Below are positions 20,358 through 38,312 of a stretch of DNA of 38,602 nt, piece by piece; within the stretch, counting starts at the first letter, position 1; each line of letters opens with the position of its first letter. The notes under the pieces are model-generated. The model saw only the letters and a list, made by a program, of their open reading frames with translations. It ran no database searches and was not told the origin of the DNA. The position numbers and the translations under genes are program-made. Source of the stretch: Clostridiaceae bacterium. GTDB taxonomy: Bacteria; Bacillota; Clostridia; Oscillospirales; Acutalibacteraceae. Location of the stretch: NCBI GenBank assembly GCA_016285645.1, contig JAEERC010000002.1:1-38602 (forward strand). The letters run 5' to 3'.

Positions 20358-23300
20358 ATGAAAATGACAAAGAAGATTTTATCCCTTCTGCTCGCACTTT
20401 TGCTGGTGCCGGGCGTGTGCGTTGTTGCGCCTGTTACGGCGGGCGCGGAGGAAACCGGCAAGGCAATCCGTTTTGTGAAAAACGGGGTTTTGGATGATAT
20501 ATCTGGTGCGTATAACAGCATCATCTGGTTCGGTAATTACCGGCAGAGTAGCGACGGAAACGGCGGATTTAACAATGATCCTATTAAATGGGAAATACTT
20601 GATACGGTTGACAACAGCAAATTGTTTCTGCTTTCCACGTATAATCTTGACTTGCATGTATACGTTGTAAATAGCTTCCCTATAACATGGGAGCAATGTA
20701 ATTTGCGTTTTTGGCTGAATACATATATCACGCAGGAACAGTATGACCTAGGCGTGCCGTTGCGTTCCCATTTTATGGATGACGCCTTCAGTTTGGCTGA
20801 AATAGCGGCAATTGCCGAAACAGAAGTTAAAAATGACCCTGACCCTTTCTACAACACACCCGGAGGCAACGATACAACAGATTATGTTTTCCCGCTCTCA
20901 TACAACGAGGCATCGCTCTTGCGATTTTATAATGCATCCGTTTCGCGCAAAGCACAACTTACGGAATATGCGGCGGATAGGGCAGTCAGTTTAGGTGTTG
21001 ACTCTTCCGTTGCTTCTGCCGGTCAATATTATAAGTATTGGCTTCGTTCACCCGGAAGCAACCCGTATAAGGCAACAATCATTACCGAAGATGGCAGTTT
21101 CAGTGAGGAAAACACAACATCAGGAACCGTTGCTGTGCGACCTGCTTTGAAATTGAATACAAATGCTATTTTATTCACTTCCGCCGCCGAAAATGGTAAA
21201 ACAGGAAACGGCGCTCTTAAAGAAATTGCCGATTACAACGGCAGCGATTGGAAGATGACGCTGCTGGATGAAAGCCGCAATTTTTCCGTGGCTCAGACGG
21301 CGGTGTCTGCAATGCCGAGAGAAAGACTCTCTATGGCTTATACCGGCGCAACGGTGGGTGATAATGAATATATCTCCGCGATTCTGACGGATTCGGAAGG
21401 TAATGCCGTGTATTACGGCAGGCTGGCGCAGCCCGCGCAGACAGACGGAACTCTGAATTTTTCCGTGCCCGCGGGTATTTCCGAAGGCAACTATACACTT
21501 AAATTTTTTAATGAACAGTATAACGGCGATTACAAAACTGACTATGCAAGTGCTTTTGTTGATATACCTCTGACAGTTACATATCCCAACACGCTGTATC
21601 TTGTGCAAAACGGTGCTGTGGATGGTGTTTTCGGTGCGCAGCAGACCAATGTCTGGTTTGGTAATTACCAGCAGTCTAACAGTTGTGAGTTTGTCAGTCC
21701 TGCTGAGCCGATAAAGTGGCGCGTGCTCTCAAATTCTGACGGCAGATTGCTCCTGCTTGCGGATCAGAGACTGGACAGGGTTCCATATAACACATCATCG
21801 GGTGATGCTGTCACATGGGAGACCGGCACCCTGCGCGCGTGGCTGAACAATAACAGCAACAATCCATACGGCGACAGTTTTATAGGCACTGCTTCCAGCT
21901 CGGGCGAAATTGCGGTGATTGCCGAAACGCAACTGCAAAACCCGGATAATCCCGTCTACGGCACTTCCGGCGGAAACGATACGGTGGACAAGATATTCCT
22001 TCTGTCTGTCGCTGATGCGACGAACACGGATTATGGCTTTACAGACGCAAATACCCGTGTCGCATCATCCACCGCTTATGCGGGCACGGGAGGACACAAC
22101 GGCCCGGGTGTATATATCGTAGTAACTATAGATGGTTCCCCGGGACCTTCGTGGTGGCTTCGCACACCCGGCGGCAGCAGTGATTCCGTAGCGTATGTCG
22201 ACAGTAAAGGCGGTGTGCGCTGCGATGGTTATCCCGAGAACAACATATATAACCTGGTTCGTCCTGCTTTGAATGTGGATTTGAACTCCGTTCTCTTCAC
22301 CTCTGCCGCAACAGGAGGCAAGCCGGGCGGCGGAGAGCTTACACGAATCGACAAAAGAAGCACACCCGAATGGAAACTGACACTGCTGGATGAAAACCGC
22401 GATTTCACCGTGAGCCAAACGGAGGTTTCTGCCATGCCGGGCAAAACAGTTTCTCTGACTTACTCCGGCGCTTCAGTGGGCAATAAAGAATATGTATCTG
22501 TAATTCTTGCGGATACGGACGGCAAAGCTTTATATTACGGCAGGCTGGCACAGCCGACAGAGGCGAACGGAACAGTATCATTTACGGTGCCCGAAGATCT
22601 TCCCGAAGGCAGCTACACGCTGAAGGCATTCAGCGAACAGTATAACGGTGATTACAAAACAGACTACGCAAGTGCTTTTGCCGATGTGACTCTGAAGGCC
22701 GGTGCTGACGGTGAGAGAATTACAGGCGTTGCCATTGACGAAAACGGACATCTTATAATCAGCTTCGCAAACGGCGGCGTGTCAGACCTCGGCAAAGTCA
22801 CGGGAGAAAACGGCTCCGACGGACAGGACGGTCAGAACGGACAAGATGGTCAGGACGGTAATGACGGCGAAGATGGTATTACACCTCAGCTTAAAATCGG
22901 CGATGACAACTACTGGTATGTCAGTTATGACAACGGCACAAACTGGGAATGCCTTAATATAAAAGCGACCGGCGAAAACGGTCATGACGGAACCAACGGC
23001 TCCAACGGTCATGATGGCAATGACGGGCAGGATGGCGTCGGAATCAAAGATGTAAAAATTGACGAAGACGGGAATCTGATTGTTACTCTGACAAACGACA
23101 GAGAGTTCAACCTCGGTAAAATTACCGGTGAGAATGGTGCAAACGGAAGCGACGGAACAGACGGACAAAACGGTGCAGACGGAAAAACTCCTTCACTTCG
23201 CATAAACGCCGAAACGCTTGAATGGGAAGTTTCCTATGATGACGGTGCTACCTGGACCTCTCTCGGCATAAAAGCAACAGGCGAAGCCGGTCAGAACGGT

Positions 23301-23789
23301 AACGACGGTCAGAACGGAGCCGATGGTAAAGACGGTGAAGACGGCAAGGACGCTCCGACCATAACGGGTATGCATTATAACGATAATGGCGAACTGATTG
23401 TCACAATGTCAGACGGCACTGAAATCAACGCGGGCAAACCTTCGGGCAGCGATGAAACCGAAAAACCCGTTGTCACCATCAGCGGTTATGAAGCAAGCAG
23501 AAGCGTGGATTACGGCACACAGATCACCTTCCACGCGTCAGCAGATTCAATCCCCGACGGCTGTGAAATTCACTTCTTCCTCAACGGCGAGGATCAGGGC
23601 TCTTCCGACACTCTGACTGTAAACGCAACAGGCAACTTCAATGTTTGCGCAAAACTTATGAAAGGCGATTCAACTCTCAGCGAATCCAAAACTGAAAAAG
23701 TTACTGTCAAGAGCGACTTCTTCAGCAGAATTATCGCCTTCTTCAAAAAGCTGTTCAATGCAAACGCGTTTATAATCGACCAGAAATAA
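20358..23789 (+). CDS. Secreted DUF6273 repeat and collagen-like surface protein
   Basis: A 1143-aa exported protein. A signal peptide (about 1-30, ending VTAGA) is followed by two copies of a large unit (about 36-410 and 415-790). Each holds a DUF6273-type domain (IIWFGNYRQS, PIKWEIL, WLRSPG, VRPALKL in copy one) and a beta domain carrying EQYNGDYKTDYASAF. Four collagen-like G-X-Y stretches (near 815-840, 873-894, 925-944 and 975-1000; rich in G-x-D, G-x-N) alternate with a repeated VSYDNGTNWE-type beta unit. The C-terminus has an Ig-like domain, then FFSRIIAFFKKLF and a short tail, with no LPXTG. Probably an adhesin or host-contact protein at the cell surface. The function is inferred from architecture. 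It is bracketed by two copies of the same terminator. Confidence 0.7.
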   Translation: MKMTKKILSLLLALLLVPGVCVVAPVTAGAEETGKAIRFVKNGVLDDISGAYNSIIWFGNYRQSSDGNGGFNNDPIKWEILDTVDNSKLFLLSTYNLDLHVYVVNSFPITWEQCNLRFWLNTYITQEQYDLGVPLRSHFMDDAFSLAEIAAIAETEVKNDPDPFYNTPGGNDTTDYVFPLSYNEASLLRFYNASVSRKAQLTEYAADRAVSLGVDSSVASAGQYYKYWLRSPGSNPYKATIITEDGSFSEENTTSGTVAVRPALKLNTNAILFTSAAENGKTGNGALKEIADYNGSDWKMTLLDESRNFSVAQTAVSAMPRERLSMAYTGATVGDNEYISAILTDSEGNAVYYGRLAQPAQTDGTLNFSVPAGISEGNYTLKFFNEQYNGDYKTDYASAFVDIPLTVTYPNTLYLVQNGAVDGVFGAQQTNVWFGNYQQSNSCEFVSPAEPIKWRVLSNSDGRLLLLADQRLDRVPYNTSSGDAVTWETGTLRAWLNNNSNNPYGDSFIGTASSSGEIAVIAETQLQNPDNPVYGTSGGNDTVDKIFLLSVADATNTDYGFTDANTRVASSTAYAGTGGHNGPGVYIVVTIDGSPGPSWWLRTPGGSSDSVAYVDSKGGVRCDGYPENNIYNLVRPALNVDLNSVLFTSAATGGKPGGGELTRIDKRSTPEWKLTLLDENRDFTVSQTEVSAMPGKTVSLTYSGASVGNKEYVSVILADTDGKALYYGRLAQPTEANGTVSFTVPEDLPEGSYTLKAFSEQYNGDYKTDYASAFADVTLKAGADGERITGVAIDENGHLIISFANGGVSDLGKVTGENGSDGQDGQNGQDGQDGNDGEDGITPQLKIGDDNYWYVSYDNGTNWECLNIKATGENGHDGTNGSNGHDGNDGQDGVGIKDVKIDEDGNLIVTLTNDREFNLGKITGENGANGSDGTDGQNGADGKTPSLRINAETLEWEVSYDDGATWTSLGIKATGEAGQNGNDGQNGADGKDGEDGKDAPTITGMHYNDNGELIVTMSDGTEINAGKPSGSDETEKPVVTISGYEASRSVDYGTQITFHASADSIPDGCEIHFFLNGEDQGSSDTLTVNATGNFNVCAKLMKGDSTLSESKTEKVTVKSDFFSRIIAFFKKLFNANAFIIDQK

Positions 23790-23846: not shown

Positions 23847-24079
23847 ATGCCTTCTGAAACGATATGAAACGATAGAAAAGCGATTTTTAGGGGTGAGGTG
23901 TGGGTGACAGTGCAGGGGCAAAAACCCATAAATGAAACAATGAATACCCGCGCTTTTCAGCCCTTGTGTATCAATACTTTCGGGGCGCAAAAAAACGATA
24001 GCATCTTCAACGCTCTTGTATCAAAGATGCTACCTGCTATGTATCTACTACCCACGATTGATACAATGACTGCATATAA
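23847..24079. other. Intergenic junction between core and defence-like operon
   Basis: No gene seen. The segment changes composition toward AT-rich DNA. It contains the convergent operon's terminator (23989-24032), and TTGTATCAA (24016-24024) with its inverse TTGATACAA (24058-24066). A looser TGTATCAA lies near 23967. These could be remains of a junction, but no attachment repeat can be proven. Confidence 0.3.
23989..24032 (-). terminator. Terminator of the four-gene defence-like operon
   Basis: Stem TAGCATCTT (23999-24007) with AAGATGCTA (24024-24032), 16-base loop, and on the minus strand TTTTTTT after the hairpin (complement of A7 at 23989-23995). It lies 48 bases past the operon's last stop codon. 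Confidence 0.65.
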
Positions 24080-26689
24080 TCATTCAAATTTCTCGTCGTT
24101 AAGAATGTTGATGAGCTTACTCTCAAATTCCATCAACTGTTCATATTGGTTGTCAAGAACAGAATAGATTTCTTCATCGGACATGTCTTCTGGGATATTC
24201 GTATAAGAAGTAACAAACGGACACTTCCATTCCCAATCTAGTGTTTTACTTCTTGTCGGGAAATGCTGTATTATGCGGTTACTTATTTTCCTTAAATTAT
24301 CCGGCAGGTTTTTCCCGCTCAACGCAAACTGCATATGAAGGCTTTTACCTCCATTATTGATGATTTCATAAAAATAAAAGTTTTTCGTCTTCCAACCGCT
24401 ATTTGCTTCATCTGCAAACGGAAGCACTTCCGTCATAGCCTCTGTAGTAAATCGAGCATACTTTCTCGAGCATTTTTCGCGATCAAGAACAATTTCGCCA
24501 TCAGCCTCTTTTGCACCGACCCACATCATGAAAACTTCAGCTAAATGTATGGATCTATTTGCTGGTTGCGTAGGATCTGGGTCTTCAGTTTCTGGCAGTT
24601 CTTCCGGAATGCTTCTTTCATCGTTTACGAAGCTAACAAATGTCAACTTTTCCTTCTGTTCCTGTGTCAATGAAAAGTTCCATCGCTTTTCCATAAAGGA
24701 AAGCAAGTTCAGGCTACGATTATATATGCGCTGACCGTCCCACGCGTCTTCTTTTGCAACTTCGATCTCCGAATTTGAACCGCTTGAATAACCACGCCTA
24801 CCTTTATTTTTATTAGTCGGCGTCTTTTTCTCATCAAAGCTATCATTTTGAAGGCTCGAATTAATGCTCTGGGCCAACGGAAGCAAATTTCCCAGCGACC
24901 CAGTTAACGCAGCCATTTCAGTTTCATTTTGAATGAACTGTCGGAATTGATTTCGCCAGTACCATTTTGAAGGTGTCTGCGGGAGAATATGTTCGATGGA
25001 GACCTTATCTTTTTCAGACTTTGCAAACAACTCCCAGGAGGGCTTTTTTACGCCAGTGCTTTCCCACAGATTATATTCATATTCATACAAGAAATACCTT
25101 AAAGAGTTCCAAGCGTAATATCCTTCTCTTTTGCCGGATTTGAGCTTCTTTTCTATATCTGTAGTAAAGCCGGGGATGGCATACTGGATGTTTGCATCAG
25201 CAGAATTATTAAGATCATTTGTGATTTTCTGTACTGTTGTCTTGCCGCTATAAACATCTCGTGCTGCACCATAATAAACAGTGCTTTGATAGTTTGATCT
25301 GTAATTTGCAAGCCTAAAGCAAACGAAAATGAAGCGCTCAATCGCAGTGAACAGCGCCACTTTTTCATCTTCAATAGCACATTTGCTTAATGCAACTGTG
25401 ACAAGCGGACGGAAATAGCCAATGCCTATCCGATTAAGTCTATCTATCCACATCTTTTCTTTGTCGGAAAGCGTGGTACTTTCTGTAGGAAACCATGTGT
25501 CATACCAGTATTTTGCCAAATCCTTTAGACTGTTCACATAATTGGCAATTTCACGAGGTTCCAGTTTAAGTAGGACCTCCGATGCTTCCTCTACTGTTTC
25601 TAGAGTCTCATCGTCTTCGTCCGCATCATCGATTATCTCCTCATAAACAGAAGGCTGTTCAATGGTGTCAACAACAGGCTTCTTTTCAAATACATTCTTT
25701 GCGGAGAATTTATTAAGTAAAAAGCGAATGTAATCGTCACCTTTTTGACGAGAGTATGCATAATAAATTATCCAGTGGGCACGCAAAAAGTCATCGTCAG
25801 ATAGCGCCACAGCCTTGTTTCTGCCCAGCTGGTAGTAAACTTCTTTCCATGCATCATTTATTTGTTTCCGAAGCTCCGATTTATCTTTTTCATCTATTTT
25901 GTCATCATTATAGATTGTCGTCAAATAGATCAATCTGTTTTTTAGAAGTTCCAGATTTGTCAATCTTTTACCACGGTTGTTCATTGTTTCAAAAGCAACA
26001 AAAACATCGTAATCATCATCTATTTCATGAAGATTAAACATCAACTTTTGTGTGAGTTTTTGATACATTTTATTCAACCCATCAATGCCTTCTTCGGCAT
26101 AAAGAACCGCTATATTGTTGGCAAAAAACTCCTTTGCTGTTTTAAGGTTCTTCGTATAATAGGTCTCGTTTACCTCGCCGGAATTTGGTTCATTAAAGAC
26201 TCTATAGCGCAGATACTTATCACTCGGATTGTCTGTTTCGTAGCCGAACAAATATGTCGTAATCATATTCTGCGGCGGGCGCTTTTGACAGATGTACTTT
26301 GCTTTTATATCCTTTATCGTTTCATAACCTAAAACAATATCGTCATCGTTCTTTCCAGCATTCTCATCCAAAGAACAAACAAAGCAAACAATCTCATTGA
26401 GCAAAATTATGAAAGTGGTAAGGCGTTGTTGACCATCTACGATATGGCAAGGTTTGAATCCCTTATCAACCATCCACAAATCATTACCCCAAGACATGGT
26501 CTCTTTGCTTTTGAGTAATTTCAGCGACAAAAGACCGGTATAGTGATATCGGTCCATCTGAAGGTTGTTTAAGTCGTCCCAAAAATCGACAAGCTGAGAC
26601 TGCTGCCACGCATATCCACGCTGATAATCCGGAATGCGAAATAGCCGGTTCTGAAACAACAATGATAATGGTTGAAGTTCGTTAGCCAA
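24080..26689 (-). CDS. DUF262-DUF1524 (GmrSD-type) nuclease
   Basis: An 869-aa protein with the GmrSD/SspE-like layout. The N-terminal DUF262 domain has RIPDYQRGYAW (about 18-28) and HIVDGQQRLTTF (near 83-94), the DGQQR nucleotide-binding motif. A long helical middle, with an acidic stretch DDADEDDETLETVEE (near 355-370), leads to a DUF1524 HNH-type nuclease domain with VSIEHILPQ and LGNLLPLAQSIN (near 565-612). A further C-terminal region of about 150 residues is unassigned. GmrSD enzymes cut modified phage DNA using nucleotide hydrolysis; specificity is unknown here. It is the last gene of the operon, after a 61-bp gap, and is markedly AT-rich. Confidence 0.8.
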   Translation of the reverse strand: MANELQPLSLLFQNRLFRIPDYQRGYAWQQSQLVDFWDDLNNLQMDRYHYTGLLSLKLLKSKETMSWGNDLWMVDKGFKPCHIVDGQQRLTTFIILLNEIVCFVCSLDENAGKNDDDIVLGYETIKDIKAKYICQKRPPQNMITTYLFGYETDNPSDKYLRYRVFNEPNSGEVNETYYTKNLKTAKEFFANNIAVLYAEEGIDGLNKMYQKLTQKLMFNLHEIDDDYDVFVAFETMNNRGKRLTNLELLKNRLIYLTTIYNDDKIDEKDKSELRKQINDAWKEVYYQLGRNKAVALSDDDFLRAHWIIYYAYSRQKGDDYIRFLLNKFSAKNVFEKKPVVDTIEQPSVYEEIIDDADEDDETLETVEEASEVLLKLEPREIANYVNSLKDLAKYWYDTWFPTESTTLSDKEKMWIDRLNRIGIGYFRPLVTVALSKCAIEDEKVALFTAIERFIFVCFRLANYRSNYQSTVYYGAARDVYSGKTTVQKITNDLNNSADANIQYAIPGFTTDIEKKLKSGKREGYYAWNSLRYFLYEYEYNLWESTGVKKPSWELFAKSEKDKVSIEHILPQTPSKWYWRNQFRQFIQNETEMAALTGSLGNLLPLAQSINSSLQNDSFDEKKTPTNKNKGRRGYSSGSNSEIEVAKEDAWDGQRIYNRSLNLLSFMEKRWNFSLTQEQKEKLTFVSFVNDERSIPEELPETEDPDPTQPANRSIHLAEVFMMWVGAKEADGEIVLDREKCSRKYARFTTEAMTEVLPFADEANSGWKTKNFYFYEIINNGGKSLHMQFALSGKNLPDNLRKISNRIIQHFPTRSKTLDWEWKCPFVTSYTNIPEDMSDEEIYSVLDNQYEQLMEFESKLINILNDEKFE

Positions 26690-26750
26690 AATATAAACCT
26701 CCTAAATGCGAAACAATGCGGAAACGAATTTGATTTTTTTCACCGTTATC

Positions 26751-28490
26751 TCATTCTCTTTCTTCTGAAAAATCTTGAGAGATAACTAGTTGCGAATTAA
26801 GTAGCGCAGCAAGTTTCTTTTTGCACTTTTTTTCGGAAACAACTGAGCCATCAAGCTCCTTTATTGTTTCAACGCAGTCTTCGTTTGTCATATTACAAAT
26901 TATACTCAAATAAAACTTTGCTCTCGATGACCCTACATAAAAATCGAAATGAGTGTCATCATTTAAAACATACTTATTTACATCAACAATTATTACCGCA
27001 TCCGCTTCAAGTCCTTTGAACTTCCTACAAGTAGTAAACCTGTAAGACTTGTTTTTATACACATAAAAGCCATCTTTGCAGTGACCTGTTAAAACGCTTT
27101 TATCTTCAGTTGCGCAAGTTAGTATCACAACATTATCAAGTTTTAAATCACGATAATACTGTAAAAGCGCATCAATAAACTCAATTTGCTTTTCTTGATT
27201 ATCCGAAATTACAATAAATGGAGAATCACCCTTAACACATCCAGAAAACATTTTGGGGCGACAAGAATCTCCAAGTGGTCGCATGCTGGTGATAGCAATA
27301 TTCTCAGTGTTTCGGCAATTCCTATACAATGTCAGCTTGCAATCCGATTCCAAAATGTATTTGGGGATTTTATATCCTTGAACTAACTGATTCTTATCAT
27401 AGAATAGATAGAAAGTTCCATTGATCTCTTCACTCAACACAATATCTTCCAAAAGGCCTATAATCGATGCTTCCTCTATTCTTTCCTTTCCAAAATCCTG
27501 GCCCTCATCAATTATTACGTGTTTAAAAGGAAACTGCCCGGAAAAGTATAATTCCTCAAGCTTTTCCTTTAACAGATTATAATCTGACGTTTCAGTGTTG
27601 CACAATGAACAAGCAAGGGCATCAATCGTATAATAAACGATATTGTTATGCGAATGATTTGCTCTAAAATAATCGCACAACAACCGATTAAAACAAAGAA
27701 ACAGCACTCTATCACCGTCATTAGCATGTCTCCTTGCCTTTTCGAGAGCAATCATGGTTTTCCCGGTTCCCGCAGCTCCGTTTATTACTGCGAACGGTTG
27801 TTCTTCCAGAAAGTTTAGAATATTTGACTGCTCGTTCAGTAGCCTATTAAAAGCAGAATTCTTAAGAGACAGGTCAGAAGCAATAGAAGGCACCAAATCA
27901 AAAGACGGGCACAAGACACTTTCGATTATCCTTCTAAACTCATCCTTTGTTAAATGCTGTTCAACCCCTGAAGCTAAAGGAATATCAAAGATCCTGTCAA
28001 TCTCTTGCTGAGCATTATCAAGGGACTCTCTTGTTAATGTTATTGCACGGTCCCCATCGGTTGGAAAGTTGATAGAAGAAAAATAATTTCTGTCAATTGA
28101 GGGAAACCAGACAGCATGTATAGGCTTAATTTTTTCCCATAAGCTTAATATATTCTTGTGCTCAAAATACTTTTGAAGTTTCCATTTATTTAAATCTGCT
28201 TGCCTGTAAGGCCCGCCTCTATCCATTTTTTTGCCGGACCCATAATACCATTCTCCTTTTATGCACTTAACATGTCCTGCTTTTGCCTCTATTACCATTA
28301 GTCCTTTTGTTTGATGAAATATTACAAAATCTGTTTCGCTTTCTCTAAGCGCTCCTTCAGAATTAGTAACAATTACTAATGAGTGAAAAACATAGTATTC
28401 ATCACTAAGTTGACTTAAAGCAACAAATATTCTGTCTTCTAAACTAGCGGGATCTAAATTGACCGGCTTTTCAGGGCACATTTTAGCCAT
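26751..28490 (-). CDS. NERD nuclease-UvrD-type helicase fusion
   Basis: A 579-aa protein. The N-terminal NERD (nuclease-related) domain carries D54 in SETDFVIFHQ, and E68 and K70 in MVIEAKAG, the PD-(D/E)xK-like pattern. From about residue 235 a superfamily 1 helicase follows: Walker A INGAAGTGKTMI, Walker B VIIDEGQDFGKE (near 328), a YRNCRNTENI motif and the late RKFKGLEADAVIIVD motif (UvrD-type motif V). NERD-helicase fusions occur in defence islands and on plasmids. The probable job is nicking or degrading DNA during unwinding. It starts four bases after the big helicase stop, so expression is tightly coupled. AT-rich, with codon use like its operon neighbours. Confidence 0.82.
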   Translation of the reverse strand: MAKMCPEKPVNLDPASLEDRIFVALSQLSDEYYVFHSLVIVTNSEGALRESETDFVIFHQTKGLMVIEAKAGHVKCIKGEWYYGSGKKMDRGGPYRQADLNKWKLQKYFEHKNILSLWEKIKPIHAVWFPSIDRNYFSSINFPTDGDRAITLTRESLDNAQQEIDRIFDIPLASGVEQHLTKDEFRRIIESVLCPSFDLVPSIASDLSLKNSAFNRLLNEQSNILNFLEEQPFAVINGAAGTGKTMIALEKARRHANDGDRVLFLCFNRLLCDYFRANHSHNNIVYYTIDALACSLCNTETSDYNLLKEKLEELYFSGQFPFKHVIIDEGQDFGKERIEEASIIGLLEDIVLSEEINGTFYLFYDKNQLVQGYKIPKYILESDCKLTLYRNCRNTENIAITSMRPLGDSCRPKMFSGCVKGDSPFIVISDNQEKQIEFIDALLQYYRDLKLDNVVILTCATEDKSVLTGHCKDGFYVYKNKSYRFTTCRKFKGLEADAVIIVDVNKYVLNDDTHFDFYVGSSRAKFYLSIICNMTNEDCVETIKELDGSVVSEKKCKKKLAALLNSQLVISQDFSEERE

Positions 28491-28494
28491 TTTG

Positions 28495-31400
28495 TTACTC
28501 TCCCTTAATTGAACTAATTAATTCATTAATTGTAAAACTTTCTTCCAAGCAAAACGCTTTCCAATCAGTTGCCTTCATTGCCTCATATGAATCTTTATTC
28601 TCTTTCAGGAAGAATGCAACTTTTGATTTTTTCCACAACAAATCTGTAGTTATCGTTTTGTTTGTTTCGATGACTCTAACACTTCCTCCATAAAAGGGTT
28701 TTTCCTTTCCATCAAGTGTGGTGTTAGTTTTTATCTCTTCAAAAAAAGCAATTTCATCATTATCTTCTGTATCTGATTCAATGTAAGACCAAATCTGCCT
28801 GTATGCCATACTCGATTGATCCTGGCCATCGTTGTTAAATACAGATAACAATCCTTCTCTTTCGGCGATTAAATCATCTTCATCTGCAAGCTTTTCACAC
28901 ACAAATGAAGAATTGCCGCATTTTAATGATTCGAAAAATTCAATTGCAAATCTTCTTTGAAGAATATCATGTTGCTTCTGGTTATAATAATTACAGAGAC
29001 AGCTATAACATGCAGTGTCTGCGGCATCTCCGCCGCAGTCGCACTCGGAAACAATTCTAAGTCCGTTGTTAAGCATGCCTGTTATTGTAGAACAATTTCG
29101 CAGGTTTCTAACATATCCCGCGCCACCAGGGGTGTTGTCAAACAATATAAAATCAAAGTTTCCAAGACCACCAAACGAAGGATTATTGTACCAGTGAAGA
29201 CAACCGGAAATTTCATTTCTGTCGATGTTCAGCTGTTTGCATAATCCCTCAATCAAAGCATACAAAATAGTCCATGCCTTGTCGGAATCAGTTATGTTTT
29301 CTGACTCAAATTGGAGCTGAACAACATCTGTTTGGAACTCGTGACCAAGTGAGTATCTTGTCAAAGTATCACAACTACAATGATATCCATCAGATTTGAA
29401 ATGAGAAGATTCTCTCCGAAGATCAAAAGAGTTTTCATGAATCTCGCCATAACCACATTCATCACAGATATAGAAATTAGAAGTGTTTAAAACAGCGAGT
29501 TCATCCATTTTGCTAGTTCCGACTACAACTTTTTTCCCATTAATTGAGTAGTTGCATTTTTCAATTTTGTCTCCATCGCCAATATATGAAATTGATCCTT
29601 TATAAGTCCTTTCCGGCTTTGAAGTACCAACGCGTTCAGGTTCCTTGTTATCAACGATAAAGCCAAATTTGGGAATAATATATGTTCTTCTGCCGAGTTT
29701 GTTTAATGGTTGGCCGCATTGCTTGCAGTTTTCGGGAAGATCATCAGTCCACAAGGTTCTGTTTAGGGTATTACAATGGCTGCAAGTAATATAGTTGTAC
29801 TTCGGCCATTCATAAGAACCAAGCTTTCTTACATACCGACTAGTAATCAGTTTTCCGTCGGCAACCACTTGAGATTCGGGAGCATACTCTGAAATAGCAG
29901 AGAATAAATCGCGATTGAGGCTTAGCGAGCTTAAAGACCCACCGTTTCCTAAGCTCTTAAGATCAACCGTATCAACAGGAAAACCATATTTAGGAATCAG
30001 ATTGTTTTGAGAGAGGAATGATATTAGCTGTTGATCTTTCAAAGTTCTTATTGAATTGCTTATGGAAATAGATTTCCAATTTACTATATTGTATTCTTTA
30101 GTGCCTGGTGTTAAGCTGTTACGTTCTCTTTCAATTCTCGTTAAGGCGTCTTTAAGTTGTTTGTTATCCGCCTCATACTTTTCTTCAGCAATATCAAACA
30201 CACCTGGATTATTAATGTCGTCCGAAAACAGTTTGTCAACCCATCCAAAGTTTTCAATATCGTATATTTTCTGAAGTTCAAATGATACAACGCTATTCAA
30301 ATAATCTTTCAAATCATCCGGCTCAGAATACAGATAATCCCTAAATGCATATATTCCGTCGTCGTCAACAAATTCGCCTATACTATGTTTATAGTATTCA
30401 GGGTGAGTTCTCCAGAAGAAGGAAAAAGCGGATGCAAAAATATGTCTCAAAACTATCTTTTCATTATCCACATTGAAAGCAGGCGGCTTAACGGATCCAA
30501 TGATCATTGAAACCGGATTTCTAAAAAAATTTAAGTCATGAGAATTGTTAGGGCAATATGTCAGTGCATATGCAGCTGATTTTGCACTTCTTCCTGCACG
30601 TCCTGCTCGCTGCGCATAATTTGCGGGTGAAGGAGGCATATTTCTCATAAAGACGGTTTCAAGAGTACCTACATCAACGCCCATCTCAAACGTCGTTGAG
30701 CAACTAAGAACATTTATCTTTTCGTTAATAAAATCATTTTGATAGTCATATGCCAGCTTATTTCCAAGCTGAGCGGTGTGCTCTTTTGCAACCAGAGTGT
30801 CAATATGCAATTCGCTGTATAGCCTTTTATAATGATCGTCGCGCTTAATTATTTCAGCATCAAACGGCAAAAGTTGTCCGCCACAATTAATATTGCAGCA
30901 TTTTCCTTTGTAATTATATGGAGTTATTGTTTTGCACTCATTACATCTAAACAACTCATTGACTTTCTTTACAATAATCTTTTCATTATTAATTATATAT
31001 TTTGATTCTGTGCTGTCATAAACAAGAATGTTTTGTTTTGTAATAATAGCCCATATTGACTTTAATAATCGTTTAATAAAGTCATCATCTTTATCCGGGA
31101 ACAGTTTTTTGAGAACTTTCGTTCTGCTATTATCATTACCGTCTTTGGGCAACCACGACTTTGTATATTGAGATTTTGAATGTGACTCTTGGTAACCGTT
31201 TATTTTTTTCCCAAAGGCGTATTCTGAAAAATCAGATTCCGTTAGAGTGATTGGTGGCTTAATGCAGCCATCTTTGACAACTTGTTTTAATAGTATCTTT
31301 ACTAAATTTGTTACTTCCTCAGCGCTTCCAATATCCGGATGCTCCGGCATTTCTATGTCAAAATCAAAATATAAAGTTCCTTCGCTTTGTAAAGAGTTCT

Positions 31401-33621
31401 TTGCTTTATAGTTTACCATTTCGCGAAGAACGGTTAACCAAGCTTGCTTGTGACGCTCATCTTCACCGCAAACTTTATACTTAGTCATAACATCCTCAAG
31501 CTTTGAAACAAAAGAATTTAGTGAAATCCCTTTGCTCATTATCTCTGCATTATCTATGCACACTTGAGTCATTATTCTTTTTAGCAGGCTGGTTTCATAT
31601 GTGTTTTGCAAATAAGAAGCAAAAAAAGCGGCAGCTTGACGATTATCTGAAAAAGTCAAAAACTGTTTAACTAGAGGCTCTTTACTAACTTCTTGAGTTT
31701 CGGTTGTGCCTGTTCCAAAGAATGAATCTTCGCTTTTTTTAATTGTTTTTGTTATTTTTGTATCAGGCAACACATCATAAAGTGCAGTTGCAATTACCGC
31801 TGTCGCGGCTTCATTTCCTAAAAAATAAGGCCTTAATATACTTCTCTGAGAGTTCTTTGTATGACAACAGGGGCAGCTTTTGAGAATTTCTCCACGTTCC
31901 TTAACTTTTATAACTCTATTCCAATTTATTCTTTCGTGACCGCAGTTTAGTCCTTCGTTTGAAGATGCATGTGTAATGGCACCGCATTTAGAGCATAAAA
32001 GGTACTTTTTATCGTCTTCTTCCGTTTCGTTTTCTTCATCCTCAGGATCATAATCGCCATCAAGAAGGTACACTTCTGGAGCGTAATCATCATCAAATTT
32101 TGATACTTGAATTAAATGACCAGATTGATCTGTTTGACCGACAATAAAAACAGCCTCGCAATTGTGACAAAAGGATATTTCATATGCTTTATAGCCAACA
32201 TCATCTTCGTCAAACGGGTCTTCTTTATAAGTTTCCATTTGCCTTAAGAACAGTTTATTGCTAGGCGACAGAGTGACAAAAACGCCCTCTATACCTCTAA
32301 TAAACATGTGGTATCTGGCCTCAAACAATTTATCATCATTAATTACAGCGTTTGATGCTACTGCAATAAAATCTGATATATCGTCAGTATTTGTTTTAAG
32401 TTCAAGCGCAAGCTGATTCAGAGCCTTGGTTTTATCAAGCAAAGCTCTTCTGAATTCATAGTAGAATGAGTCATGAACAATCATTGAATACAGTGTCTTT
32501 TCAAGACTTTTTTCAATGTCATCATCTGGAATAATCTCAACACGATTGTTCTTTAAAAATTCAATATTGTCTGAGGCGGGATAGTTTTCTCTAATTCTAG
32601 TTGCTAATTGTCTGTAAATTTCAAAATCAAGTCTTTCAATTGCGTCAGGTTTTTCCGGGGGAATAGTTACAGATCTGATAATTGAATTGTTATCAAAGTC
32701 TGTATTACATAATGACTCTGCAAAGTTAACTATTTTAGGGTTATCATCTTTTCCTCCCAAAGTTGCAGAAGTCAAAATGAATTGAAGGTCATTTCTCCTC
32801 AACATGGCCTTAACTCTTTTTAGAAGGCTTCCAACCTCAATGCCGGTTGCTCCACCATAAGAATGTGCTTCGTCCAAAACAATAGAGTGCCACTTTTGGG
32901 CGTTTGTTTCGTTGAAAAAGACGTTGTCTCCAGGTCTGAGCAAGAGAAACTCCAACATTGCATAGTTTGTAATTAATATATTTGGCGGTGTTTCCTGCAT
33001 CTGTTCTCGGCTTATAAGCTCATTCTTTTTAGGCTCAAAGCCTTCTCTTTCTACAAATGCATCATACGCTTCTTTATATGTGTATAAAGTTTCTCCGGTA
33101 TATTTTCCGAATGTGATGTCTTCACAATCACCTAAAACTTTTCTTAATCTTGTTATTTGGTCATTAACCAATGCGTTCATTGGGTAAATGATAAGTGTGC
33201 GCACGCCGGGATTAAGTGTGCCGTTTTCTTTCTCTTTCAGCAAATGGTTTATAACCGGAATAAGAAAGCATTCGGTTTTACCTGAACCTGTGCCGGTAGT
33301 AATAACCAAATTATTATCATTAGTTGCTTTCTTTATTGCTTCAACCTGGTGTTTATATAAAGCCCTGTCCGGATGCAACTTATCCAAATCCAAAATAGAT
33401 TTACAGAGATAACCTTCTTCAACTAGCTGACGAATGCTCATTTCTTTCTTGAATGAGTCGCTCATACTTATAAAAGGACCATTTGAGATAACATTATCTT
33501 TTGACAATTGCTCTGCCATCTGCTTGTTGTAATAGTCCCTATTTGTTCTAAATGTTGAAAGTAAATACCTTCTGTAAAAATCAACTATATCTTTTGAACT
33601 GTCAGCCGGTCTAAATAACAT
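28495..33621 (-). CDS. Giant DEAH helicase with DUF1998/MZB region (DruE-like)
   Basis: A 1708-aa protein. The N-terminal helicase core has a Q motif (ALYKHQVEAI), Walker A TTGTGSGKTE (108-117), motif Ia YPMNALVNDQ, LITNYAMLEF, DEAH (250-253 in IVLDEAHSYGG) and LTSATLG. A long insertion with zinc-finger-like CxxC pairs separates it from the second RecA lobe, which has FEMGVDVGTLE and QRAGRAGRSAKS (near 1000). The C-terminal part (from about 1300) has CSHCNTL and CKQCG, then a DUF1998/MZB segment with DNTPGGAGYVRNL and CYSCLCNYYNQKQHD. This fused layout is that of DruE of Druantia and of MrfA-type helicases, rather than the split DrmA/DrmB of DISARM. Its ATG overlaps the stop of the unknown gene upstream by one base. 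Confidence 0.8.
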   Translation of the reverse strand: MLFRPADSSKDIVDFYRRYLLSTFRTNRDYYNKQMAEQLSKDNVISNGPFISMSDSFKKEMSIRQLVEEGYLCKSILDLDKLHPDRALYKHQVEAIKKATNDNNLVITTGTGSGKTECFLIPVINHLLKEKENGTLNPGVRTLIIYPMNALVNDQITRLRKVLGDCEDITFGKYTGETLYTYKEAYDAFVEREGFEPKKNELISREQMQETPPNILITNYAMLEFLLLRPGDNVFFNETNAQKWHSIVLDEAHSYGGATGIEVGSLLKRVKAMLRRNDLQFILTSATLGGKDDNPKIVNFAESLCNTDFDNNSIIRSVTIPPEKPDAIERLDFEIYRQLATRIRENYPASDNIEFLKNNRVEIIPDDDIEKSLEKTLYSMIVHDSFYYEFRRALLDKTKALNQLALELKTNTDDISDFIAVASNAVINDDKLFEARYHMFIRGIEGVFVTLSPSNKLFLRQMETYKEDPFDEDDVGYKAYEISFCHNCEAVFIVGQTDQSGHLIQVSKFDDDYAPEVYLLDGDYDPEDEENETEEDDKKYLLCSKCGAITHASSNEGLNCGHERINWNRVIKVKERGEILKSCPCCHTKNSQRSILRPYFLGNEAATAVIATALYDVLPDTKITKTIKKSEDSFFGTGTTETQEVSKEPLVKQFLTFSDNRQAAAFFASYLQNTYETSLLKRIMTQVCIDNAEIMSKGISLNSFVSKLEDVMTKYKVCGEDERHKQAWLTVLREMVNYKAKNSLQSEGTLYFDFDIEMPEHPDIGSAEEVTNLVKILLKQVVKDGCIKPPITLTESDFSEYAFGKKINGYQESHSKSQYTKSWLPKDGNDNSRTKVLKKLFPDKDDDFIKRLLKSIWAIITKQNILVYDSTESKYIINNEKIIVKKVNELFRCNECKTITPYNYKGKCCNINCGGQLLPFDAEIIKRDDHYKRLYSELHIDTLVAKEHTAQLGNKLAYDYQNDFINEKINVLSCSTTFEMGVDVGTLETVFMRNMPPSPANYAQRAGRAGRSAKSAAYALTYCPNNSHDLNFFRNPVSMIIGSVKPPAFNVDNEKIVLRHIFASAFSFFWRTHPEYYKHSIGEFVDDDGIYAFRDYLYSEPDDLKDYLNSVVSFELQKIYDIENFGWVDKLFSDDINNPGVFDIAEEKYEADNKQLKDALTRIERERNSLTPGTKEYNIVNWKSISISNSIRTLKDQQLISFLSQNNLIPKYGFPVDTVDLKSLGNGGSLSSLSLNRDLFSAISEYAPESQVVADGKLITSRYVRKLGSYEWPKYNYITCSHCNTLNRTLWTDDLPENCKQCGQPLNKLGRRTYIIPKFGFIVDNKEPERVGTSKPERTYKGSISYIGDGDKIEKCNYSINGKKVVVGTSKMDELAVLNTSNFYICDECGYGEIHENSFDLRRESSHFKSDGYHCSCDTLTRYSLGHEFQTDVVQLQFESENITDSDKAWTILYALIEGLCKQLNIDRNEISGCLHWYNNPSFGGLGNFDFILFDNTPGGAGYVRNLRNCSTITGMLNNGLRIVSECDCGGDAADTACYSCLCNYYNQKQHDILQRRFAIEFFESLKCGNSSFVCEKLADEDDLIAEREGLLSVFNNDGQDQSSMAYRQIWSYIESDTEDNDEIAFFEEIKTNTTLDGKEKPFYGGSVRVIETNKTITTDLLWKKSKVAFFLKENKDSYEAMKATDWKAFCLEESFTINELISSIKGE

Positions 33622-36434
33622 TATACAATCCTCCCAATCAACGTATCATATACCGTGGAGTCATCAAACAATGGAATATACCTCGAATAATCATTGCTAG
33701 ACAGACTATCACAATCTAACAACCTATGTTCATTGCAATCATAATAAAGCGGTTCGAAAATATCCTCATCGTACTCATATTTGATAGATAACACTGAAAG
33801 AACGCCTTCTTCGTTTGTACACTCCACTAACACGTTATCTAATACAACCCTAGATGGCCCCAAGAAATCCTTTTTCTTTTCTTGCTCAACGAGTTTCCCC
33901 TTAAAGGTAATCTCATCAATCATTTCGAGATGCAGAATAGAATAGTTATAATCAAAATCTAAAACCGTGTCATTGTTGGTAACTCCATTAATAGTTACTT
34001 TGCATTTTGATATAGTTTTCGAGTTGACTATACCTAATCCATATTGAGGCTCACATATCTCTTTGAGTTCAGCGAAAAAGCCAAAAGCATCTCCTTCACG
34101 TTCAAAAATTTTCATAGTGTAAATTCCATCTGGAGAAACATCATCAAAGTTATTAACCCCATTATTTACAGTCTTTTCAGCGATAGTTTCGTTTGTGTTT
34201 TGATCAATTATTTGAATTACCAGATCGTAATTTCCTTTATAATCAACATCAACTTTTACACCGCTTTCTTCGTCAAAAATCATATTTGCTTTAATCACTT
34301 TGTTGTGAAATAAAACATCATATAACTCAAACAGATATTTTTTGTCAGCTTCAAAAAAGAACCTTATGGCGTTTGTTCCATTAGCGTTATTATGTATTTC
34401 TTGATTAAGATCAGTTAAATCAAATTTAAACAGTCCGTTTTTTTCTTCTACTCCCTTTTTTCTGCCATTTATTCCGATATTGTTATTCTTTTCATACAAT
34501 AAAAACGCTTTAGAAGCACCGGGAATTAATACATTAAAATCATTTTTTAAATCTGTGTGCCACAGATAGTCTGGCTTGGATGGGGTTAAAGCACCTTCAA
34601 AGCCATGCTTAAATGTATTAATTTCAACGTTGAATAAAAACTGTGTATTGTTAAGCTTGATTGAAAACTCAGCAACACCCGTTTGATTGTGCAAATCAAA
34701 AATGAACCGATTTGTGCTACTATCTTTATAGCAGTTAATTGGAGCTATTTCATAATTACTATTTAAATCAATTATAGCTTCATCATCAAACACATACCAT
34801 TTTTTATCAAGTTCGCATTTGAAATCTTTAAAAAGAAGATATTTACAAATTGTCTTATTTGATTTCCCAGGTTCATCCAATTCAATCAAATACATTCCTT
34901 CTTTATCTTCAAGGATGTCTTCCAATATTATTGTTACGCCCTTTGTTTCAACTTCATCTGGCAAATCAACGATTGATGTTGCAACATACTCAATAAAGTG
35001 TTTCGAGTTATTACACCTAATTAAGGTTCCGCCAATCAAACTGCTAGGCACTTTGAAAGATACTATAGGATGATTATATGCGGCCCTTATTGGCTTGTTG
35101 TCACTGTAAAAAGTTACTCCTTCTCCCAGATTTTCAAAATTTGCGCCAACAGTAAAACTACCGGTCATGGAAATGGGGCATTCGTTAATATACAAAACGG
35201 ACTTTTCATTTATCTTTCCAAATGAATACTCATCCCATTCGTCAAAATCACGGTTTATATAAACCGGTTTTTCTCCTTTTATTATGCTGCCTTTTGAGAC
35301 TAAAATATAGTTTTGGCCTTTTCTAAGTTTTGATATTTCATAATAATCCTCATCAAAAATACGATAAGATTTTGATTCTATTTCAAATTTTCTTGTTTTT
35401 CCGGAGACTATTGAAACACTAAACTCAGCGAAAACATCATCAATAGGTATGCGCTTTTCTTCAGTAACATAAACACCAAACGCACGATAAATGTTCAATG
35501 TATAAGTGTCTGCTTTACCATTTACTGATACCAAAGCATAAACAGACCCTCTTAAATCATCCTCGCGTATTTTTTGCTTAGGAATCACTAAACTCGCGTA
35601 ACCATTTCCACGATCAATGGTAAAATACGGCTTCCGATAGAATACGCCGCTATGCTTTCTATCTCCTTTAAGTTTAGCTTCTTTTATTTCGTTTGTTTTT
35701 TCTATCCATTTTGAGAACGCAACACTGAATCTATTAGAATCATTCGGCTGTTTGTCATCAAAATAATCGTCCACCATTTTAAGGTGGTCATATAGAATGT
35801 TTGAAACCGCGGTAACATCACCTGTTGCAAACAACGAACGAGTGGCTTTTAGTAGTCTGTATGATTTGGAGGGGCGGTTGTCAACAGACATAAGACTTAC
35901 GCTATCTCCAGAACTGCTTAATGAATTTTCAAAGAAATATGACATTTCAGCAAAATCTTCAGTTATATCATCAGGAAGCTGCCTAAGAAGGTTTTTCTCA
36001 TAGAAGGCATAAATAAAGTCAAAGTATCCATCAAGATAGTTATTAGGCACATAGGCATGAGCTTTTATGTTTTCAACAAATGCATTGTTGGCATATTTGT
36101 CACGAGAGATTTGAAACAGATGATAATGCTTTAATGTGGCAACAAATACTCTACCAATATTATTTGTTTTAGCAGACGACAAAGCAGGATTGTTAATCTC
36201 CTCTTTAAAGTACTCCCAATAGTTTCCATCTGTATATTTTCTTATTGCAACCTGAACAAGAAAAACCGACAAATAGAGGTCACAAGGTGAAGTTGTTCTT
36301 ATCTGTAAATTATTAATACGATCTTTGGAATAAGCCAACAGTTCGGCATATTCTTCTTCAGAAATCTGTATCTGGCCAAGAAGCTTTATGCCGGAATCTT
36401 GTATTGCGCTTTGAATTGTTTCAATAAAGCTCAT
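33621..36434 (-). CDS. Large protein of unknown fold, first gene of the defence-like operon
   Basis: A 937-aa protein that I do not recognise. The N-terminal ~200 residues are alpha-helical. After about residue 250 it becomes largely beta, with many short alternating strands (for example KPYFTIDRGNGYASLVIP, and FSIKLNNTQFLFNVEIN), suggesting stacked beta-sandwich domains. No catalytic motif, Walker box, zinc cluster or membrane helix is seen. Start: ATG at 36434 after GGGAGGA; an in-frame TTG 15 bases upstream is less likely because it overlaps that ribosome binding site. It overlaps the helicase gene by one base. By position and size it could be the counterpart of DruH in Druantia type III. 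That is inference from context, not from sequence similarity. Confidence 0.7.
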   Translation of the reverse strand: MSFIETIQSAIQDSGIKLLGQIQISEEEYAELLAYSKDRINNLQIRTTSPCDLYLSVFLVQVAIRKYTDGNYWEYFKEEINNPALSSAKTNNIGRVFVATLKHYHLFQISRDKYANNAFVENIKAHAYVPNNYLDGYFDFIYAFYEKNLLRQLPDDITEDFAEMSYFFENSLSSSGDSVSLMSVDNRPSKSYRLLKATRSLFATGDVTAVSNILYDHLKMVDDYFDDKQPNDSNRFSVAFSKWIEKTNEIKEAKLKGDRKHSGVFYRKPYFTIDRGNGYASLVIPKQKIREDDLRGSVYALVSVNGKADTYTLNIYRAFGVYVTEEKRIPIDDVFAEFSVSIVSGKTRKFEIESKSYRIFDEDYYEISKLRKGQNYILVSKGSIIKGEKPVYINRDFDEWDEYSFGKINEKSVLYINECPISMTGSFTVGANFENLGEGVTFYSDNKPIRAAYNHPIVSFKVPSSLIGGTLIRCNNSKHFIEYVATSIVDLPDEVETKGVTIILEDILEDKEGMYLIELDEPGKSNKTICKYLLFKDFKCELDKKWYVFDDEAIIDLNSNYEIAPINCYKDSSTNRFIFDLHNQTGVAEFSIKLNNTQFLFNVEINTFKHGFEGALTPSKPDYLWHTDLKNDFNVLIPGASKAFLLYEKNNNIGINGRKKGVEEKNGLFKFDLTDLNQEIHNNANGTNAIRFFFEADKKYLFELYDVLFHNKVIKANMIFDEESGVKVDVDYKGNYDLVIQIIDQNTNETIAEKTVNNGVNNFDDVSPDGIYTMKIFEREGDAFGFFAELKEICEPQYGLGIVNSKTISKCKVTINGVTNNDTVLDFDYNYSILHLEMIDEITFKGKLVEQEKKKDFLGPSRVVLDNVLVECTNEEGVLSVLSIKYEYDEDIFEPLYYDCNEHRLLDCDSLSSNDYSRYIPLFDDSTVYDTLIGRIV

Positions 36435-36473
36435 ACTTTTTCCTCCCAAAAGTGTAAAAAAATTGTTGAATTG

Positions 36474-36488
36474 CTAGATTATTAATCT
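36474..36488. promoter_or_regulatory. Perfect palindrome upstream of the defence-like operon
   Basis: TAGATTA-T-TAATCTA, seven-base arms with a one-base centre, 40 bp before the start codon. It looks like an operator for a dimeric repressor, though no regulator gene is present in the operon. No confident -35/-10 pair was found nearby. Confidence 0.4.
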
Positions 36489-36578
36489 AAAAACTATTTT
36501 GAGTTCATCATTTTTAAATATCCATTTATACCTCAATTATATATTTCTGAAGAATGATTGCTAAGAACGCTTCAAGTA

Positions 36579-37454: not shown

Positions 37455-38312
37455 TATCACACTACCAAATTTAAAGGAGGTCATAGTAATGACATACTGC
37501 AAAAGTCGTTTACAGTAGATTTCCTTCAAAAGAAAGTGAAGAAAAACGAGGGCGAGGTCGCAAAGTATTATGTTGAGAAAAGCCACCCGGCGATAATCAG
37601 CCCGGAAGAGAGGGAAAAGGTGCAGACGGAAGTCGAATACCGAAAGCTGCGCGGTAATCACTGCAACAGTCTCAATCCGTTCTGCTTTAAGATAGTATGC
37701 GGAGAATGCGGCGACCACTACGGCAAAAAGGTCTGGCATTCAACCGATCCGAAATACCGCAAAAATGTATGGCACTGCAATTCAAAATATCTCCGCGAGA
37801 CCGGCTACTCTACACCGTTTATAACGGATGAAGATATAAAGATTCTTTTTATCCGGGCGGTCAGAAAACTGTCCGTTTATGACGGAACTGTTCTTGATAC
37901 CTGTATGCTGGCAAAAGAAACTCTGGCCGATGCTTCCGCCGAAGAGGAGCGGGGCAGAGAACTTGCCGACAAACTTGAAATGCTGAATCTGATGATTACA
38001 AACCTTATCAAGGAAAACGCCGTCGAACCGATGGACCAGGCCGAATACAACCGAAAATACAATCTGCTCTCGGGACAATACGAAGAGGCGCAGTTTGAGT
38101 ATAACTCCCTGTGCGAAAAGATACTGGAAAAACGGTCAAAAGCAGATAAAATAAATACTTTCATAGAACAGATAAAATCAATGCAGAATATGCCGCTGGT
38201 GTATTCCGACAAGATGTTTATAAATATGGTTGATGAAATCAAGGTTACCGCTGACGAATCACTGATTTTCAAATTTAAAAACGGCGCGGAAATAGAAGAA
38301 CTGCTCGACTGA
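37455..38312 (+). pseudogene. 5'-truncated large serine recombinase
   Basis: The C-terminal half of a large serine recombinase, with the resolvase catalytic domain missing. The frame is open from 37455 but homology begins at about 37488 with NDILQKSFTVDFLQKKV, then YYVEKSHPAIISPEE (recombinase domain end), a zinc beta-ribbon (CGECGDHYGKK and HCNSK), and a long coiled coil to EELLD. Full-length enzymes are ~500-550 residues; about 280 remain. The sequence upstream (37235-37454) shows no N-terminal domain on this strand. Such enzymes integrate phages and conjugative elements, so this is likely a scar of an old element near the defence-like operon. The codon use is GC-richer than that operon. 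Confidence 0.7.

Follow-up and report, generated by a model that had tools for sequence, protein, structure and literature searches.

The window analyzed here, a stretch of 38,602 nucleotides from a Clostridiaceae bacterium (GenBank assembly GCA_016285645.1, contig JAEERC010000002.1, positions 1 to 38,602), contains four long co-directional open reading frames (ORFs) on its minus strand, separated by short gaps, an arrangement far beyond chance. In the direction of transcription, they encode G1, a DruH-like protein of 937 amino acids (33621..36434) with a helical N-terminus followed by Ig/FN3-type beta domains; G2, a DruE-type superfamily 2 (SF2) helicase of the YprA family (1708 amino acids, 28495..33621), assigned by PADLOC, Pfam and trees; G3, a protein of 579 amino acids (26751..28490) in which a NERD nuclease with E-x-D-F/E-x-K motifs is fused to a UvrD-like superfamily 1 (SF1) helicase with Walker A and B motifs; and G4, a DUF262/GmrSD-type nuclease of 869 amino acids (24080..26689), which starts with TTG after AGGAGG. 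G1 and G2 overlap by 1 base, G2 and G3 are 4 bases apart, and the gap between G3 and G4 is 61 bases. An earlier note on this DNA had reported the same four-gene order on one strand with overlaps or tiny gaps, and ORF calling recovered it together with the sizes of 937 and 1708 amino acids. We consider it probable that G1 and G2 form an anti-phage locus similar to Druantia III-B, with G3 as an accessory effector and G4 as a passenger.

The PADLOC models that scored highest with G2 were DruE1 (E 5e-179, 596 bits) and DruE3 (E 3e-162, 541 bits), both far above non-DruE families, and Pfam detected DEAD, Helicase_C and MZB (MrfA Zn-binding) domains. For scale, a true Chryseobacterium DruE3 reached 2692 bits with its own model, the best value for G2 being the 596 bits with DruE1. 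Past residue 1566, G2 has 142 amino acids, as against 361-388 (312-343 by a second alignment) in two E. coli-type loci (L006 and L007; L-numbers are the locus labels of this analysis) and in the Chryseobacterium locus L011, and it was placed apart from these three in the DruE tree (FastTree, long branches flagged). Type III-A DruE is described in the main text of PMC12458937 as having a C-terminus with two PLD domains. With this PLD content taken from that source, the C-terminus of G2 is shorter than type III-A would require. Helicases of Druantia III-B and III-like systems are said there to be "most frequently" without a nuclease domain (PMC12458937, Bell et al. 2025 preprint), and G1-G2 would fit a divergent member of this branch.

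The assignment of G1 was less direct. An alternative start, TTG at 36449, would give a protein of 942 amino acids (33621-36449); however, this TTG overlaps the ribosome-binding site GGGAGG, and the form of 937 amino acids, whose ATG at 36434 comes after GGGAGG, is therefore most likely. No PADLOC or NCBIfam family matched G1 at E 0.01, and its only Pfam result was an Ig-type model with an E of 0.37, which is nowhere near the cut-off. The PADLOC DruH models were unmatched at E 0.01 by G1 and by the proteins P0001 and P0003, whereas DruH of L006 and L011 did match the DruH3 models. We built a G1 family profile from ORFs in DruE flanks, seeded with nine G1-like proteins (five rounds, unconverged; E <1e-5, >500 amino acids). 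It recruited 62 proteins, 56 of them directly upstream of DruE and the other 6 nearby in the flanks; DruH proteins of L006, L007 and L011 were not recruited. A profile of seven DruH sequences (L006, L007, L202-L205 and L207; L206, whose gene is cut by an insertion sequence, was left out and L011 was reserved as a test) matched the G1 family profile with a probability of 79% (E 1.6e-5); reversal as a control gave 0.58. The alignment covered the N-terminal domain, residues 27-151 of the window protein and 34-162 of DruH, and this domain of G1 is probably homologous to that of DruH. Several points weigh against such a relationship. A subset of 20 G1-family sequences weakened the match to E 0.028; with one or two DruH sequences E ranged from 5.5e-4 to 0.13, the values for eight control proteins being 0.1 to 0.82; and the homology spans about 120 N-terminal residues, with no match detected beyond them.

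The AlphaFold2 model of G1 (mean predicted local distance difference test score, pLDDT, 84; predicted template modelling score, pTM, 0.57) was helical to about residue 260 and all beta thereafter, ending without a helical C-terminal part. Foldseek found generic Ig/FN3 arrays with TM-scores of ~0.05-0.15 over the query. Judged by these data, G1 appears to be a distant DruH relative that does not have the C-terminal region of DruH, and any functional consequence of this would follow only by inference. The earlier note had found that the first two genes fit a DruH-DruE layout; this is supported if the pair is taken as III-B or III-like, and membership of G1 in the PADLOC DruH families was rejected.

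Other members of the G1 family showed additional domains. In L052 (5924-9961), a Ktedonosporobacter protein of 1346 amino acids directly upstream of DruE contains sigma-70 regions 1.2, 2, 3 and 4 at residues 1045-1326. Stretches resembling the RNA polymerase alpha C-terminal domain occur three times in a protein of L019 (5415-9995; best 184-239) and twice near the C-terminus of P0003 in L005 (6176-9556; best 960-1018); among 30 members scanned (alignment A6), three matched RNA_pol_A_CTD and one matched SSB. BspA-type leucine-rich repeats were seen in proteins at the G1 position in L014 (4060-9972; residues 540-659) and L018 (1051-5415; residues 18-87), and in L014 the gene after DruE also seems, by eye, to start with such repeats.

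The pair is rare and patchily distributed. Among 394 genomes of the order, G1 was found in 2, its own included, and a G2 match at E 1e-30 in 11, some of them partial; the G1 search returned no plasmid record and one phage record. This record, Ruminococcus phage NatCom_28274, encodes a G1-like (916 amino acids) and a G2-like protein (1558 amino acids, 35% identity) whose genes overlap by 4 bases, and no homologs of G3 or G4 were found in the stretch of the phage that was read. The phage pair (L003, 14767-22190) lies between endolysin and replication genes of this tailed phage. DruE of L066, a locus from a metagenome-assembled genome (MAG), is a very near sister of the phage DruE, and L066 may be a prophage. 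A second pair, in genome G250 (this and G013, G054 and G221 below are genomes that were searched), has a G1-like gene with 25% and a G2-like gene with 42% identity, with no G3 or G4 nearby. There, DruE is followed by a gene for 480 amino acids (L005, 14349-15788) that we take, by eye, to carry a NYN/PIN-like motif; its product had no PADLOC match at E 0.01.

To place G2 among related loci, 84,980 genomes were scanned with a three-sequence G2 alignment and the best 80 of 581 places were taken, a choice that favours window-like DruE. Added to these were ten loci from a viral scan, the window (W), G250, the phage, five plasmid neighbourhoods and a PLSDB record of chromosome size. L001, L002 and L004, which are parts of the window or of G250, were removed, as were L045 and L068, where no DruE ORF was called; the final set comprised 97 loci with a DruE ORF, which in 7 is at most 1350 amino acids long. 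A co-directional ORF lay within 200 bp upstream of DruE in 86 of the 97. Alignment A4 consisted of the window and 49 of 51 listed sequences (L088 and L092 were left out), A5 of the window and 33 of 70, and L078 was dropped from one Pfam scan.

G3 matched the PADLOC model RTasNERD-Hel (E 2e-62, residues 1-531), and the Pfam NERD model was unlisted at E<=1; we use the label NERD because of the PADLOC profile and the conserved E-x-D-F/E-x-K motif. Residues E52, D54, F55, E68 and K70 and those of Walker A and B were invariant in 10 of 10 aligned homologs. Full-length homologs were present at 10 of the 97 DruE loci (W, L012, L023, L031, L038, L040, L051, L058, L075 and L093), or at 10 of the 75 that have at least 1.8 kb of DNA downstream. 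In all ten, the gene is on the same strand as DruE with no ORF of at least 150 amino acids between them, nine being downstream and one (L058) upstream. The distance between the two genes was -12 to 13 bp in nine cases, and 757 bp with two small ORFs inside in L051. Under random placement among flank ORFs, a rough null, adjacency in 10 of 10 would have a probability of ~8e-7. Matches below 500 bits were not counted (L026, L044, L048, L057, L083, L090, L098 and L100); those of L026, L098 and L100, partial or weak, lie directly after DruE, and with a less strict threshold there would be more than ten.

We also surveyed the locus types from the side of the NERD-helicase. The G3 search gave matches in 8 of 394 genomes of the order and 30 of 398 of the phylum (the window's genome and G013 belong to both sets), and in 6 plasmid and 0 phage records. 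The G013 copy is directly after DruE, apparently at the same place as L031. Forty other NERD-helicase places included one beside DruE (L168), seven beside DrmA/DrmB, one beside a C3a/DpdF-like helicase (L129) and two at contig edges. The DISARM-type DrmA/DrmB genes had the NERD-helicase downstream in L130, L131, L133, L185 and L191 and upstream in L199 and L200. In L178, a NERD-helicase directly follows an unlabelled gene for 1872 amino acids (gap 0).

These data bear on a simpler explanation, namely that a two-gene Druantia III-B stands in a defence island where the NERD-helicase and GmrSD are independent chance neighbours. It agrees with the absence of a full-length NERD-helicase from 87 of the 97 DruE loci (65 of the 75 with sufficient downstream DNA), with 29 of the 40 other NERD-helicase contexts, which matched none of the few context queries used, and with the phage and G250 pairs; the first two of these also count against a functional link between G2 and G3. 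Most NERD-helicases are not DruE partners. However, chance proximity does not account well for the NERD-helicases in DruE flanks, all ten of which adjoin DruE on the same strand and nine of which do so almost without a gap, nor for one NERD clade that is nearly confined to DruE. We regard this explanation as rather unlikely and favour an accessory role of G3: the NERD-helicase appears to be a recurrent partner of DruE, and not a core component because it occurs at only 10 of 97 loci. As the pairing returns in microbes that are not related, it is probably a functional one.

The clade in question was found in a NERD tree of 50 rows, which was compared with a DruE tree of 92 rows (including the added L138 and L139; seven short-DruE loci were left out). 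W, L012, L023, L040, L075 and L128 formed a NERD clade with support 100, in which 5 of 5 readable members are directly after DruE, the context of L128 being cut by a contig end. A nine-row clade (support 95) adds L031 and L168, both with DruE, and L129, which is beside another SF2 helicase; 7 of its 8 readable members directly follow DruE. The NERD proteins of L038, L051, L058 and L093 fell outside this clade, DruE context changed five times in the tree, and the 11 DruE-linked NERD proteins were rejected as one clade (p 1.5e-4). On the DruE tree, the 10 tips with a NERD-helicase required 10 changes in its presence. Grouping of the seven DruE proteins that accompany the nine-row NERD clade was also rejected (approximately unbiased, AU, test, p 1.1e-4), a value that is optimistic as the 29 rows tested were picked after seeing the DruE tree. 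Such scatter fits either repeated gain of the NERD-helicase or many losses of an ancient association, and the counts of changes do not discriminate between the two.

The C-terminal extension of G2 (residues 1567-1708; 28498..28923, minus strand) tentatively has a degenerate PD-(D/E)xK/Vsr-like fold. Its AlphaFold2 model (pLDDT 82, pTM 0.56) contains a helix-strands-helix-strand-helix unit, and Foldseek with the G2 C-terminus found MrfA as the best PDB match (E 7.5e-4) in the zinc part. An inactive Vsr-like fold is our guess from this model, and the extension might instead have an RNase H-like fold. A profile of three extensions (W, L012 and L023) was related to those of L033, L138 and L168 (E 2.2e-5), and a larger profile matched L075 (1.2e-5), L057 (1.2e-4) and, weakly, L073 (1.9e-3), eight controls giving 0.27-0.95; L040, L074 and L010 were not matched by it. 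Kinship with the C-terminus of L010, by eye an active Vsr, gained no support. An extension of 90-200 amino acids was present in 7 of 10 DruE proteins with a neighbouring NERD-helicase and 13 of 72 without one (Fisher p 0.0015), and independent pairs were split ~6:0 (median p 0.03; exchanging the two traits gave 0.07), both tests having 11 rows with long C-termini dropped. This link between the DruE extension and G3 is suggestive at most.

Against the fold and the association stand a number of observations. AbaSI/PvuRts1I were matched by Foldseek only at E 0.18-0.62, and the L010 result speaks against a Vsr-like fold as well. The association had p 0.125 when all 93 rows were kept, the extension was scored by length alone, and the test was made after the pattern was seen. 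Extensions occur without a NERD-helicase in L033, L138, L057 and, weakly, L073, and NERD-helicases occur without an extension in L038, L051 and L058. In L013, a sister of L012, the end of the extension and the NERD-helicase are both missing in the DNA read.

G4 has both GmrSD domains (Pfam GmrSD_N, E 4e-29, 102.4 bits with a cut-off of 33.2; GmrSD_C, E 2e-16, 60.4 bits with a cut-off of 23) and matched PADLOC HEC-06 (E 3.5e-46), and its residues 717-863 match the C-terminal end of PDC-S26 (PADLOC). G1-G4 are likely a single operon: the strongest minus-strand terminator-like site is an intrinsic-terminator-like hairpin with a T-run 3' of G4 (23997..24034; 15 pairs, 4 of them G-C), the others between the operon ends having 5-6 pairs and lying inside genes. 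With the short gaps, this terminator would suit a system in which DruE, the NERD-helicase and GmrSD act as one four-gene unit, as the earlier note had suggested, and a G4 homolog in L134 is near DrmA/DrmB, another YprA-type set. However, in all the DruE flanks read, those of the nine other loci with a NERD-helicase included, L058 alone had another G4-like ORF, and there it is on the opposite strand. The closest homologs of G4 (65-66% over residues 1-708; that of L134 is one of them) are in G054 and G221, two genomes in which G2 found no match, and its plasmid relatives, at about 43% for those listed, are in 31 Acinetobacter records. The pair mostly occurs without both nucleases, an outcome that the earlier note had named as refuting and that here speaks against the four-gene unit, and NERD-helicases are often elsewhere. 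We set the four-gene system aside as quite improbable; of the two nucleases proposed as extending the pair, the NERD-helicase is recurrent beside DruE and GmrSD is not. G4 is probably a passenger, an independent restriction gene.

A YprA system of the TALON or ARMADA kind, in place of Druantia, was also considered. TALON itself pairs a YprA homolog with a NERD nuclease, according to the main text of PMC12458937, and two loci with a NERD-helicase, L038 and L058, are from Chloroflexi-type MAGs, L058 being without a G1-family gene in the DNA read. We judge this alternative very improbable, as no TPR-CSD, TBP, BrxHII-like or PglX-like protein was found among G1-G4 or the 10 neighbouring ORFs scanned (the HsdM fragment described below aside), G1 is DruH-like and G2 scores highest with DruE models. 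That G2 is an MrfA-type DNA-repair helicase, as its MZB domain and the MrfA match of its C-terminal model might suggest, and as the earlier note had named among the outcomes that would speak against a defence role, has next to no likelihood given that DruE models disfavour MrfA and cover most of its 1708 amino acids, and given its large operon partners, patchy distribution and carriage by a phage.

Beyond the gene content, homology, recurrent adjacency and phylogenetic scatter observed here, we infer an anti-phage function of the operon as follows. The Ig-like array of G1 would be a sensor of an infection signal, upon which G2 would load onto phage replication intermediates bearing 3' single-stranded DNA and then translocate. 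DNA would be cut in trans by G3, because G2 is without the long PLD-type C-terminus and G1 without a counterpart of the helical C-terminal part of DruH. G3 may dock on G2, perhaps via the C-terminal extension. G4, on this model, would be co-transcribed and act as a separate GmrSD-type restriction enzyme. We tentatively extend the proposal to suggest that the nuclease-poor III-B branch might outsource cutting to a movable NERD-UvrD protein that joined DruE several times, that one clade of it became dedicated to DruE and moved from one DruE lineage to another together with, or owing to, a docking extension that suits it, and that YprA-family immune helicases, DruE as well as DrmAB, could take up their nuclease as a plug-in module. 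The mechanism of Druantia III has just been described for its E. coli form (PMC13192584), and the III-B branch is reported to be mostly without a DruE nuclease (PMC12458937). A recurrent adjacent NERD-helicase offers a testable answer to how part of this branch might destroy phage DNA, and, since NERD-helicases also stand beside DrmA/DrmB, exchange of nuclease partners may be general among YprA-family immune helicases.

The surroundings of the operon are consistent with an acquired locus. As previously noted, the region is AT-rich, with a GC content of 0.33-0.40 in windows wholly inside 24-37 kb versus 0.40-0.52 across 1-24 kb. A DNA search with 23900-26000 among 20 relatives gave a match in the window's own genome only. 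About 100 bp upstream of G1 is a promoter-like site, TTAGCA-17-TATAAT (36536..36564, minus strand), which is a consensus match only; the region has 62 such sites with 47.5 expected from shuffles. Further upstream is a fragment of a decayed HsdM gene (P0004; 36579..37118, minus strand; HsdM_N E 1.6e-14), a single open stretch as read, followed by a recombinase fragment with a zinc ribbon (37536..38309, plus strand), which hints at earlier mobility; its Zn_ribbon_recom match (E 1.5e-4) does not reach the Pfam cut-off. Of the decayed flanking genes proposed earlier, the restriction gene was supported by its domain and the recombinase by a match below the cut-off. Scans of the window found no Rfam families and no tRNA, and a search for flanking repeats as element ends gave just short imperfect pairs. 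On the other side of the operon, positions 20358-23789 (plus strand) encode a protein of 1143 amino acids that may be a surface protein; it contains DUF6273 and DUF4988 and, less strongly, resembles collagen-like and Ig-like models.

When compared with known systems, G1-G2 share gene order, size class and a helical-then-Ig-like layout with DruH-DruE of E. coli Druantia III, in which, according to PMC13192584, the helical N-terminus of DruH gives way at residue 257 to Ig-like domains, its C-terminal part is suspected of a role in DNA processing, the DruH dimer cleaves DNA and DruE carries its own PLD nuclease. They differ in that G1 is unmatched by PADLOC DruH models and G2 does not have the C-terminus of 361-388 amino acids. 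The M. smegmatis DruH-DruE pair, two overlapping genes for 1132 and 1667 amino acids that protect against phages (PMC13316683, whose main text does not contain the word NERD), is in the size class of the actinobacterial G1-family loci L041, L051 and L073, a comparison of size and not of sequence. G3 resembles RTasNERD-Hel, an accessory of DRT in PADLOC, over 531 of its 579 residues, and NERD+UvrD C3a187, whereas no reverse transcriptase was found among the 14 window ORFs scanned. G4 shares both domains with GmrSD and HEC-06 DUF262 enzymes and differs by an extra C-terminal stretch and its place within a Druantia operon. TALON and the window both combine a YprA helicase with a NERD nuclease; the window operon, however, has no TPR-CSD/TBP gene, its NERD is fused to a UvrD helicase, and a DruH-like gene is present. 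The main text of PMC12458937 names NERD only for TALON and was not found to mention DUF262/GmrSD, PMC10952713 lists it for Mokosh I and for Nhi-like systems, where NERD is meant, and a pairing of Druantia with a NERD-helicase or DUF262 was not found in main texts of the open-licence PMC literature. The closest likeness in kind appears to be to Druantia III-B and III-like systems as described in PMC12458937, with which the window shares a DruE without the long III-A C-terminus, a large gene at the DruH position and a broad, patchy distribution, and to which it adds an adjacent NERD-UvrD gene and GmrSD.

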